Positions 43,192-47,696 of a stretch of 64,000 bases of DNA are shown one piece after another (within the stretch, counting starts at the first letter, position 1; every line of letters begins with the position of its first letter). The stretch lies in NCBI GenBank assembly GCA_009702325.1, contig WLID01000001.1:62001-126000 (forward strand), written 5' to 3'. This DNA is from Actinomycetota bacterium (GTDB lineage Bacteria; Actinomycetota; Thermoleophilia; Gaiellales; Gaiellaceae). The notes under the pieces are model-generated. The model was not told the DNA's origin. It did not search any database and saw only the letters and a list, made by a program, of their open reading frames with translations. A program made the translations under genes and the position numbers.

Positions 43192-43912
43192 GTTCGCGTC
43201 GCTCGAGGGCAAGACGGCACTCGTCACCGGAGGTTCGCGAGGAATCGGTGCGGCAATTGCGCGCGAGCTCTCCCGTGCGGGCGCTTCGGTTGTTGTTGGC
43301 TACCGCGCAGGTGCCGAAGAGGCTGAGGCGTTGGCGAAGGAGATCGGCGGTCGCGCGATCGCTGCCGATGTGTCGACCGCCGAGGATGCAGAGCGGCTCG
43401 TGAACGAGGCGGGCGACCTGGACATTCTCGTCAATAACGCGGGCCTCACACGCGACGGATTGCTCGCTCGCATGTCAGATGATGACTGGCACACCGTCAT
43501 TGAGACGAACCTCAGCTCGGTGTTCTACACCTGCCGTGCCGTGACTCGGCCGATGATGAAGAAGCGTGCTGGCGTGATCGTCAACGTCAGCTCTATCGTC
43601 GGCATCCACGGCAACTGGGGCCAGACGAACTACGCAGCGTCGAAGGCGGGCATCATCGGCTTCACGAAGTCCCTCGCGCGCGAACTCGGTTCGCGCAACG
43701 TGCGTGCCAATGTGGTTGCGCCTGGGTACATCGCGACGCGCCTCACCGACGTTTTGCCCGACGAGGTTCGCACCGCGATGCTCGAGCAGACGCCGCTGGC
43801 GCGCCTCGGGGAGCCGGACGACGTTGCCGGGGCGGTACGGTTCCTTTGTTCCGACGCAGCATCGTTCATCACGGGCGAGGTTGTGCTCGTTGATGGCGGA
43901 ATGGGGATGTAG
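43184..43912 (+). CDS. fabG: 3-oxoacyl-ACP reductase FabG
   Basis: A 242-residue SDR, starting at TTG 43184 (8-nt overlap with fabD). Motifs are VTGGSRGIGAAIA, DILVNNAGLTRDGLL, VSSIVG with catalytic Ser, YAASKAGIIGFTKSLARELGSRNVRANVVAPGYI and SFITGEVVLVDGGMGM. All active-site residues (Asn, Ser, Tyr, Lys) are present, and the C-terminal signature is that of authentic FabG. It is separated by only 24 bp from fabF, with GGGAG before the fabF start. Confidence 0.95.
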   Translation: MAEFASLEGKTALVTGGSRGIGAAIARELSRAGASVVVGYRAGAEEAEALAKEIGGRAIAADVSTAEDAERLVNEAGDLDILVNNAGLTRDGLLARMSDDDWHTVIETNLSSVFYTCRAVTRPMMKKRAGVIVNVSSIVGIHGNWGQTNYAASKAGIIGFTKSLARELGSRNVRANVVAPGYIATRLTDVLPDEVRTAMLEQTPLARLGEPDDVAGAVRFLCSDAASFITGEVVLVDGGMGM

Positions 43913-43936
43913 TTCGATGCAAGGGAGACGGCAGGC

Positions 43937-45193
43937 ATGAGCGACAACGGGCGCAGGCGGGTGGTCGTCACCGGCCTTGGCATGGTCAGTCCACTCGGAA
44001 ATGACTTCGAGACGTCGTGGTCGCGCCTCCTTGCGGGCGAGAGCGGCGTTGGCCCGATCACGCAGTTTGACCACACCGAATATCCCGTCCACTTTGCCTG
44101 CGAACTGAAGGATTTCGATCCCACCAACTGGGTTGAGCGCAAGGCGTCGCGGCGAATGGACCGGTTCGCGCAGATGGCGATCGCTGCCGCCCACCAAGCG
44201 CACGCAGATTCGGGCGTGAACGTCGCCGACGATCCGACGCGCATGGGCGTGTCGATCGCGACCGGCATCGGTGGTCTCGCATCGTTCCAGGAGTGCTACG
44301 ACACGCTGCGCGACCGTGGGCCCGATCGTGTGAGCCCCTTCTCGATCCCGTCGATCATTCCGAACATGGGAACGGCGTGGGTCTCGATCGAACTTGGTGT
44401 CAAGGGTCCGGTCATGAGCGAGTGCACCGCGTGCGCGGCGTCGAACATGGCAATCGGCTCAGCGCTCGACGAGATCCGCAACGGCCGAGCCGACGTGATG
44501 TTCGCGGGTGGCACCGAAGCGCCGATCACACGGGTTGGCGTGGCGGGCTTCGACGCAATGCGCGCACTCTCTCGCCGCAATGAGGATCCAGAACGTGCTT
44601 CCCGACCGTTCGAGCGTGATCGTGACGGCCTCGTGATGGGTGAAGCTGCAGCCGTGCTTGTGCTCGAGGAACTTGAACGCGCGAAGGCACGTGGCGCGAG
44701 GATCTACGGCGAGCTCATCGGCTATGGAATGTCTGCCGACGCGTCGCACATCACCGAGCCGGACCCGACAGGTGAAAGCCCTGCGCGTTCGATGCGGATG
44801 GCTATGGAAGATGCACGCGTTGACCCGTCCGAGATTGGCTACATCAACGCCCACGCAACCTCGACGCCGATCGGCGACACCTCCGAAACACGGGTGATCA
44901 AGCTCGCTCTCGGTGAAGAGAACGCGTACAAGACGACGATCTCCTCCACCAAGGGGGCGACTGGCCACTGCTTCGGTGCTGCGGGTGCGATCGAAGCGGT
45001 GTTCACAACGCTCGCGCTGCGAGATCGGCGCGTGCCACCAACGATCAACTATGAGAATCCCGATCCGACGTGCGACCTTGACTACGTACCGAACGTCGCA
45101 CGCGACCTGCCGAACTTGAATGTCGCTCTTTCAAACTCGTTCGGATTCGGCGGCCACAACGCCACTATCGTCCTGCGCCGCTACGAGGGGTAG
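43937..45193 (+). CDS. fabF: 3-oxoacyl-ACP synthase II
   Basis: A 418-residue FabF condensing enzyme. The triad is Cys in SECTACAASNMAIGSA, His in INAHATSTPIGDT and His in KGATGHCFGAAGA. GLGMVSPLGNDFETSW is the usual start, and the C-terminus NSFGFGGHNATIVLRRYEG completes the thiolase fold. Normally acpP lies between fabG and fabF or near it, but the 24-bp gap here holds only a ribosome-binding site, so ACP must be encoded elsewhere. Confidence 0.96.
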   Translation: MSDNGRRRVVVTGLGMVSPLGNDFETSWSRLLAGESGVGPITQFDHTEYPVHFACELKDFDPTNWVERKASRRMDRFAQMAIAAAHQAHADSGVNVADDPTRMGVSIATGIGGLASFQECYDTLRDRGPDRVSPFSIPSIIPNMGTAWVSIELGVKGPVMSECTACAASNMAIGSALDEIRNGRADVMFAGGTEAPITRVGVAGFDAMRALSRRNEDPERASRPFERDRDGLVMGEAAAVLVLEELERAKARGARIYGELIGYGMSADASHITEPDPTGESPARSMRMAMEDARVDPSEIGYINAHATSTPIGDTSETRVIKLALGEENAYKTTISSTKGATGHCFGAAGAIEAVFTTLALRDRRVPPTINYENPDPTCDLDYVPNVARDLPNLNVALSNSFGFGGHNATIVLRRYEG

Positions 45194-45199
45194 GCCACG

Positions 45200-46765
45200 G
45201 TGAGGCGCCGTCTTGGCGCAGACAGCGGCGTCGTGCGATGGGCGACGTTCGACTGTTACGGCACCCTGATTGACTGGAACGGCGGAATCCGTCAGGAGAT
45301 CGCACGGGTGTTCGGCGAGGATCGCGCCGACGAGCTGCTGCAGCGCTACCACGAGCTTGAGCCCGTGATTCAGGAAGACGGCACTCTCAGCTATGCAGAC
45401 GTGATGACCGAGGCAATGCGCCAGCTCGGTGCCGCGGAGGCAGACGCGCCCATGTTGGCGGCCTCGCTTCCGTCGTGGCCCGCGTTCCCTGAGGTGCGCG
45501 CCGCGCTCGACGAAGTCCGGTCGCGCGGTTGGCGGCTCGCGATCCTCTCAAATACCGATCCGGCGTTCATCGAGGCTTCGAAGAAGCGGATCGGCGTCTC
45601 GTTCGAGGAGACGATCGTTGCGGCAGACATCAGCTCGTATAAACCATCCCACAAGCATTGGCAGGAGTTCTTCGCCCGCACCGGTGCTGACCCGGCTCAG
45701 CATGTTCACGTCGCGGCGAGCCTCTTCCACGACATCACCCCTGCTAACGAGCTGGGTATTCCGTCGGTGTGGATCAACCGCCTTGACGAGACCCCCGGCC
45801 CGCTCTCGCAGCCAACGAGAGAGCTCCGTGAGCTGGTCGGCCTGGCGGATACTCTCGACGGGATCGTGCCCTTGCGTTCCGAGAGTGCAACCACTTCACC
45901 CTCGGGGCGGTCTAAGATCGAGATGCCGATGACAGAAACACGTATCGACGTCCAGGTCGAGAGCACGCAAGCGCCGCCGACGGGACAGAAGCACCCGAAC
46001 ACGTGCCCTGGCTGCGGCTCGCATTTCCGAGACGATGAGCTCGCCGAGACGCTGTACGTGTGCGGGCACTGCGGCCATCACTTCCCGATGCCGTCACACG
46101 CGCGTATCGCCTGGCTCACCGATCCCGGTTCGTTCGTCGAGGACGCGGCGGGCGTCCGCTCCGGCGACCCCCTCTCGTTCTTCGACCTCCGCTCCTACGG
46201 TGAGCGGCTTGCGGAAGCCGAACTCAACACTGGCCTTGGCGAAGCGCTGATCATCGGATCCGGAACAGTTGATGGCCGCCCGCTGGAGCTGGCGGTTATG
46301 GACTTCTCGTTCATGGGCGGTTCGATGGGGAGCGCGGTTGGCGAGAAATTCGTTCGGGCCGCCGACGCGGCCATCGAACGCGGCACCCCGCTCCTTGCGG
46401 TGCCGAGCTCCGGTGGCGCCCGCATGCAGGAAGGCATCTTCTCGTTGATGCAGCTGCCAAAGACGGTGGCTGCCGTCGAGGATCTGCACGACGCAGGCCT
46501 TCCCTTCTTCGTGTTGATGGCGCACCCAACAACCGCTGGCGTGCTCGCGTCGTTTGCGTCGCTTGGTGACGTCACGATCGCCGAGCCGGGCGCACTGATC
46601 GCCTTCACCGGTCGCCGTGTGATTGAAGGCACGACCCGCGAGAAGCTCCCCGAAGACTTCGGGAAGGCCGAGCAGAACCTCCGCTTCGGCCACCTTGACG
46701 CCATCCTCCCTCGATCGGAGCAGCGGCCCTACGTGTCGCGACTCCTCAAACTCTTTGGCCGGTGA
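45200..46765 (+). CDS. accD: HAD hydrolase fused in frame to acetyl-CoA carboxylase carboxyltransferase beta (AccD)
   Basis: A single uninterrupted 521-codon frame. Residues ~15-232 form a haloacid-dehalogenase-type HAD domain: motif I FDCYGTLIDW, motif II ILSNTD, motif III Lys in SSYKPSHKHW, motif IV AASLFHDITPANELG. After a ~35-residue Ser/Thr-rich linker with ATG codons at 45923 and 45929 comes complete AccD (about 244-521): zinc ribbon CPGCGSHF...YVCGHCGHHF, SSGGARMQEG and IGALIAFTGRRVIEGT-like segment. TAAGAT at 45913 could give a separate, leaderless 278-residue AccD. So it may be a fusion, two genes without a stop between, or both. Confidence 0.85.
   Translation: MRRRLGADSGVVRWATFDCYGTLIDWNGGIRQEIARVFGEDRADELLQRYHELEPVIQEDGTLSYADVMTEAMRQLGAAEADAPMLAASLPSWPAFPEVRAALDEVRSRGWRLAILSNTDPAFIEASKKRIGVSFEETIVAADISSYKPSHKHWQEFFARTGADPAQHVHVAASLFHDITPANELGIPSVWINRLDETPGPLSQPTRELRELVGLADTLDGIVPLRSESATTSPSGRSKIEMPMTETRIDVQVESTQAPPTGQKHPNTCPGCGSHFRDDELAETLYVCGHCGHHFPMPSHARIAWLTDPGSFVEDAAGVRSGDPLSFFDLRSYGERLAEAELNTGLGEALIIGSGTVDGRPLELAVMDFSFMGGSMGSAVGEKFVRAADAAIERGTPLLAVPSSGGARMQEGIFSLMQLPKTVAAVEDLHDAGLPFFVLMAHPTTAGVLASFASLGDVTIAEPGALIAFTGRRVIEGTTREKLPEDFGKAEQNLRFGHLDAILPRSEQRPYVSRLLKLFGR
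45913..45931 (+). promoter_or_regulatory. Internal -10 box and starts for stand-alone AccD
   Basis: TAAGAT (45913-45918) is followed by CGAG and an in-frame ATG at 45923, and another at 45929 (10 nt after the box; MTETRIDV). This matches the leaderless pattern of other genes here and could express AccD without the HAD domain. It lies in the poorly conserved linker. Confidence 0.4.
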
Positions 46766-47696
46766 AGCTGAGCGCAGCCTCCGAGCGCGACTCGGACGGC
46801 TCACAAATCTGCCGCTGCTCCGCGGAACGCGTGTGCAAAGCGAGGCGGAGCGACTGCGGAAGCAGATCGAGAAGCTCGCGAAGGAGCCGAGCGAGGACGG
46901 CGCGTGGCGATCGGTAGAGCTCGCACGGGATCCCAACCGGCCCTACACCCTCGATTACGTCGAACGGCTGCTTGACGACTGGATTGAGCTCCATGGCGAC
47001 CGGAGCCGCACTGACGACGGTGCGCTCGTCACAGGACTTGGGACGTTTGAGGGTCGCACCGTGGCGCTGATCGGTCATCAGAAGGGTCGCGACGTCAAAG
47101 ATCGGCTTGATCGCCAGTTCGGCATGGCGTACCCGGAGGGGTACGCGAAGGCAATGCGGGTGATGGAGCTCGCCGATCGGTTCGGCTTCCCTGTGATCTC
47201 GCTTATCGACACGCCAGGTGCCTACCCGGGAGTTCTCGCGGAGCAGCACGGGCAGGGCGGTTGGATTGCCCGGTGCCAGGCGCTGATGCTGCGCCTCTCC
47301 GTTCCCACCGTTGCGTGCGTCATCGGTGAAGGCGGTTCGGGCGGAGCTGTTGCGATCGCTGTGTCGGACCGCGTGTTCATGCAGGAGAACGCGATCTACT
47401 CGGTGATCTCACCTGAGGGGTGCGCCATGATCCTCTGGCGCGATGTCGCCGATGCCAAGAAGGCAGCTGCTGCGCTCCGTCCTGACGCGTTCCACTGCTA
47501 CGAGCTCGGCGTCATCGACGGCATCGTCCCGGAGCCGACTGGTGGAGCACAGAACGATCCGGATCGCGCAGCGGCGCTGCTTCGAGAGTCGATTCGTTCG
47601 GCGTTCGCAGAGCTCGACGGCATGTCGCCGACAGAGCTCAAGCGCAGTCGGCGCGCAAAGTTCCGCGCCATGGGCGCGTTCGCGTCGCTCACGTAG
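46755..47696 (+). CDS. accA: Acetyl-CoA carboxylase carboxyltransferase alpha
   Basis: A 313-residue AccA forming the carboxyltransferase with AccD. Motifs are RPYTLDYVERLLDDWIELHGDR, LGTFEGRTVALIGHQKGRD, the oxyanion loops DTPGAYPGVLAEQHGQG and IGEGGSGGAVAIAVSDRV, and ISPEGCAMILWRD. The start is uncertain: TTG 46755 (11-nt overlap with accD, usual length) or GTG 46833 (287 residues). It converges with marC across the 186-bp gap holding DnaA-box-like sites. Confidence 0.93.
   Translation: MAGEAERSLRARLGRLTNLPLLRGTRVQSEAERLRKQIEKLAKEPSEDGAWRSVELARDPNRPYTLDYVERLLDDWIELHGDRSRTDDGALVTGLGTFEGRTVALIGHQKGRDVKDRLDRQFGMAYPEGYAKAMRVMELADRFGFPVISLIDTPGAYPGVLAEQHGQGGWIARCQALMLRLSVPTVACVIGEGGSGGAVAIAVSDRVFMQENAIYSVISPEGCAMILWRDVADAKKAAAALRPDAFHCYELGVIDGIVPEPTGGAQNDPDRAAALLRESIRSAFAELDGMSPTELKRSRRAKFRAMGAFASLT

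Follow-up and report, generated by a model that had tools for sequence, protein, structure and literature searches.

A HAD-AccD fusion frame in two sister genomes of the Gaiellaceae, probably a tolerated loss of a stop codon ahead of an embedded accD promoter

Does a frame that runs without a stop codon from a HAD-type hydrolase into accD, which codes for a subunit of the enzyme of the first step in fatty-acid synthesis, encode a selected bifunctional protein, or two proteins that have been joined and keep their separate work? The frame lies at 45200..46765 on the + strand of the 64,000-nucleotide stretch of DNA that was analysed (the window). It starts with a GTG at 45200, ends with a TGA at 46763-46765 and comprises 521 codons plus the TGA. 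In the 521-aa product Pfam matched Hydrolase/HAD (aa 14-192) and Carboxyl_trans (aa 338-482), and NCBIfam matched HAD_type_II (aa 14-197) and accD (aa 253-517). This confirmed the claim of a first-pass annotation that a HAD domain and a complete AccD share a single stop-free frame. That annotation knew of no described HAD-AccD fusion, and in the literature searched we also found no paper describing one; the search gave nothing useful on N-terminal extensions of AccD with zinc or on acetyl-CoA carboxylase in Gaiellales. We regard HAD-AccD as a new fusion architecture, which probably arose when a stop codon was lost ahead of a promoter that now lies within the frame.

The HAD domain is type II haloacid-dehalogenase-like and occupies about aa 12-225 (45233..45874, +), as judged from PF00702/PF13419, TIGR01428 (below cut-off), 3SMV and the predicted model. 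All four motifs that define the HAD superfamily were present (D18/T22, S117-N118, K148 and D178) and invariant across the aligned relatives, and the PF00702 score was above the cut-off. Among solved structures the HAD domain is closest to (S)-2-haloacid dehalogenase / L-azetidine-2-carboxylate hydrolase (3SMV). With this family (PDB 3SMV, 8YWO; TIGR01428) the HAD half has in common the stretch FDCYGTLIDW, the SN of motif II, the SYKP lysine and the SLFHD motif. It differs in that the cut-off of TIGR01428 (haloacid dehalogenase type II) was not reached, with a score of 108.3 vs 125.4, and in that it lacks a stop codon of its own in the clade of the window genome (G000) and a second genome, G009. 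These solved relatives are unconnected with the chemistry of CoA or biotin, which argues against a selected bifunctional protein in which the HAD was recruited to AccD, either to work on a carboxyltransferase ligand or to set the amount of AccD.

The accD gene proper (45929..46765, +) encodes 278 aa beginning with MTETRIDVQVE..., and its ATG at 45929 aligns with the starts of free AccD in relatives. The complete AccD corresponds to aa 244-521 of the fused frame, and the four zinc-ribbon cysteines (C269, C272, C288 and C291) are all present together with the carboxyltransferase domain. The zinc ribbon and the four HAD motifs (D18, S117, K148, D178) had both been read correctly from the letters alone. 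The closest solved relatives of this half are bacterial carboxyltransferase beta subunits. It resembles known AccD (TIGR00515; PDB 2F9I, 2F9Y) in its full carboxyltransferase domain, its four-cysteine zinc ribbon and the accA that follows, but differs from it in the N-terminal in-frame HAD extension. The cut-off of TIGR00515 was missed (291.7 vs 317.45). Three unfused AccD relatives also stayed below it, at 295-314, and the low score is therefore a trait of the family and no effect of the fusion.

An accA ORF lies directly downstream of the HAD-AccD frame and supplies the expected partner of AccD, and fabF ends six bases upstream of the frame. The TTG at 46755 was the sole in-frame start of accA found in 46701-46900, and it overlaps the end of accD (46755-46765). 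Further upstream, the gap between fabG and fabF is 25 nt (43912-43937), too small for acpP.

In the predicted model of the fused chain the HAD was modelled with high confidence to about residue 222, followed by low-confidence residues 227-265 between the domains; this agrees closely with the linker of about 35 residues proposed earlier. The mean pLDDT was 62.5 overall and the model was built from six rows; the AccD half was poorly modelled because the alignment had only these six. Residues 227-265 are predicted to be disordered. A disordered linker would suit a reading in which the locus yields effectively two separate proteins, free AccD and a HAD-bearing chain that does not matter, either because the fusion is cleaved there or because the operon messenger hardly reaches accD, and the predicted promoter of accD itself, discussed below, would suit it as well. 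We regard this reading as unlikely.

How widespread is the fusion? Among 103 genomes of the family a stop-free joint between HAD and accD was found only in the window genome and in G009 (contig CAIWTI010000211.1, from a MAG named Kiruna_bin-03445). G009 is a second species-level genome with the same open frame, the same length and no stop, and its protein is 88% identical. Both genomes are metagenome-type assemblies, which speaks for an error of assembly or sequencing that erased the stop codon. Since two assemblies of different species show the same frame, the same length and no stop, the fusion is not a sequencing error, and we consider an explanation by such errors highly improbable.

The first-pass annotation had argued that a stop codon between the two genes in relatives would make the fusion a chance read-through frame. 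Such a stop was present in 49 of the 51 distinct loci where both genes lay on one fetched piece, but both closest genomes are open, which therefore points to a recent loss of the stop and not to a meaningless chance frame. In five genomes (G010, G007, G006, G030 and G078) HAD and accD stand in one frame with a stop in between, and in G004 the HAD adjoins accD in a different frame. In most other relatives one or more genes separate the two, so the pair is not normally adjacent; in the relatives examined the intervening gene encodes an arginase-family protein (PF00491). In L010, L013, L016 and L029 a zinc-ribbon plus arginase-family (PF00491) protein lies between HAD and accD, and this gene is missing between the two in several genomes, the window genome among them.

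A search for AccD homologues with an N-terminal HAD domain had been proposed; G009 has one, and no third fusion was found in a class-wide sample of 399 genomes, which was scored so that fused or adjacent in-frame HAD/accD pairs would stand out. Apparent fusions of the HAD to other downstream genes (L061, L070 and L078) were rejected; stops are present and the tblastn matches had overshot them. The two open genomes are sisters in the AccD tree (support 100/100) and in the HAD tree (100/99). The distribution is therefore explained if the HAD stop was lost once, and the fusion is carried neither by independent lineages nor by a broad clade. That a frame without its stop should run on into accD is no great surprise taken alone: for 15 random codons the chance of an open in-frame path is about 0.2. 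The HAD does lie in the fab operon of many relatives, as a selected bifunctional protein might lead one to expect. That reading is weakened by the restriction to two sister genomes and by the position of the HAD in nearly all relatives, apart from accD and usually with other genes between.

The linker (about aa 226-243; 45875..45928, +) also holds a predicted promoter of accD. The TAAGAT box and the two ATGs (45923 and 45929), noted earlier as a possible source of free AccD, were found where they had been placed. The box, at 45913-45918, is the -10 hexamer of the conserved element GGTCTAAGAT (45909..45918, +), and it is preceded by a conserved upstream block TGCAACC (45886..45892, +), TGYAACC in relatives. 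The first ATG (45923..45925, +) is a possible alternative start. From the first T of the -10 hexamer it is 10 nt to this ATG, below the range of 11-16 nt, and 16 nt to the ATG at 45929, the upper edge of that range. A TANNNT beginning 11-16 nt before the accD start was present in 59 of 65 distinct relatives of the family, and in background blocks in 4 of 260 (1.5%). TGYAACC 18 nt before TCTAA is common to many relatives. In 13 genomes of the genus AACC-N16..18-GTCTAAR occurred at 11 sites, 10 of them directly at accD, and the accD element was also found in G001-G005, G007-G009 and G011. Among the starts in the window (fabZ, fabH, fabG, fabF, HAD, accA and accD) the signature is found at accD alone.

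A TANNNT about 12 bp before the start is a mark of leaderless genes, which are common in Actinobacteria (PMC3160421; PMC3898074). In the first of these studies they account for about a fifth of the genes of actinobacteria (PMC3160421); in M. tuberculosis about a quarter of the genes for which there is a primary start site are leaderless (PMC3898074). Upstream of accD in the window no Shine-Dalgarno-like site was seen, and together with the TANNNT this matches a leaderless gene, with window spacings at the edges of the range. The accD start codon would coincide with the expected transcription start or follow it closely, as in the published leaderless genes (PMC3160421; PMC3898074). Unlike in those, the promoter here doubles as coding sequence of the open frame that runs in from upstream, and accD has the extra block TGYAACC 18 nt before TCTAA. 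Judged by these signatures, the TAAGAT box very probably acts as a promoter from which free AccD is made, and the linker appears to be mainly accD's own promoter, which we infer to be active. With the promoter signature at accD and no Shine-Dalgarno site, free AccD would most likely be translated from a messenger of its own that is nearly leaderless, and not by re-initiation on the long messenger. The earlier proposal of two forms from one locus is thereby supported as a likely outcome.

We compared the window genome with G009 to see how the parts of the frame evolve. The dN/dS was 0.085 for HAD and 0.04 for AccD, with a dS of about 1.2. For the linker it was about 0.7, with 4/3/4 changes over the codon positions, none of which is favoured, in a comparison of only 17 codons that has little power. 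The promoter blocks are identical in the two genomes. Ten of their third codon positions are degenerate, and none of these differs either (p about 0.002, from neighbouring rates). Outside these blocks 18 of 28 linker sites differ, vs 102 of 215 silent sites of the HAD. A linker that changes faster than silent sites of the HAD, outside the promoter blocks, speaks against a selected bifunctional protein. Although 17 codons make a weak test, the pattern looks like a promoter within an untended spacer that evolves like non-coding DNA, and unlike a selected protein linker.

Two further observations are expected from a selected bifunctional protein: the frame is kept open in both genomes, and the HAD is strongly selected while it can be made only within the fusion. 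As to the first, no stop has arisen in either lineage while roughly one synonymous change per site accumulated, as a selected fusion also predicts; in a neutral simulation, though, the frame stayed open in both with a probability of 0.58-0.79, and the open frame is therefore no evidence for function. As to the second, strong selection on a HAD with no other in-frame stop argues for a HAD-bearing chain that is made and working, and hence for a fusion that is at least tolerated; the fused HAD-AccD protein is thus probably made. Nothing found supports a new joint enzyme. The proposed action of the HAD on a ligand close to the carboxyltransferase was not supported, with two sister genomes only, a rarely adjacent pair and a linker under DNA-type constraint, and we consider a selected bifunctional protein improbable. 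We give similarly little credence to the idea that the locus makes two AccD forms by design, one tethered to the HAD and translated from the fab operon messenger, the other free and supplied by the embedded promoter, and that their ratio tunes the assembly of the carboxyltransferase or places HAD activity at the complex.

The explanation that we favour, and hold to be probable on the comparative sequence evidence, is a clade-specific loss of the HAD stop that gave a tolerated HAD-AccD fusion, with free AccD still supplied from its own promoter. The common ancestor of the window genome and G009 would already have been without the genes that usually lie between HAD and accD. The HAD stop would then have been lost, so that the frame runs through the accD promoter into accD. 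Ribosomes translating the HAD on a fabF-HAD-accD messenger would meet no other in-frame stop and produce the 521-aa chain, and RNA polymerase starting at the linker promoter would give a (nearly) leaderless accD-accA messenger and the normal 278-aa AccD. Because free AccD would be supplied independently, the loss of the stop may have done little harm. HAD and AccD would each keep the ancestral job, with AccD pairing with AccA and the tether tolerated but not selected. We infer from these comparisons that transcription does start at this promoter, that cells contain both products and that joining the two proteins serves no function.

A domain fusion could in this way arise with the downstream gene shielded, because a promoter at the start codon within the linker would keep supplying the normal essential protein. 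The case is also a warning against claiming a bifunctional enzyme in an actinobacterial genome from nothing more than two domains in one open frame.

The element dedicated to accD, present about once per genome in the genus, may offer a testable handle on how the first step of fatty-acid synthesis is set in members of the genus, which are uncultured. In sequence and spacing, AAC followed by GTCTAA resembles the promoters of ECF sigma factors; distant relatives keep the TANNNT only, without the rest of this pattern, and the literature searched held nothing useful on ECF sigma in Thermoleophilia. In the genus TGYAACC-N18-TCTAA is near single-copy per genome, as one might expect if a particular regulator or an alternative sigma factor served accD. 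We rejected the element as a general promoter motif, since the exact pattern AACC-N16..20-TCTAA occurred only 4 times in the whole window genome (19 in the control). One of three other matches to the relaxed pattern in this genome, which may be due to chance, lies at 1501-1528 of L123 (G000:C1:657582-657609), shortly before an Asp23-like gene, after which comes a DAK2-domain (FakA-like) gene; both names are given by sequence resemblance. The single match to acyl-carrier protein in the genome, at C1:666699-666902, is about 9 kb from this Asp23/DAK2 site.
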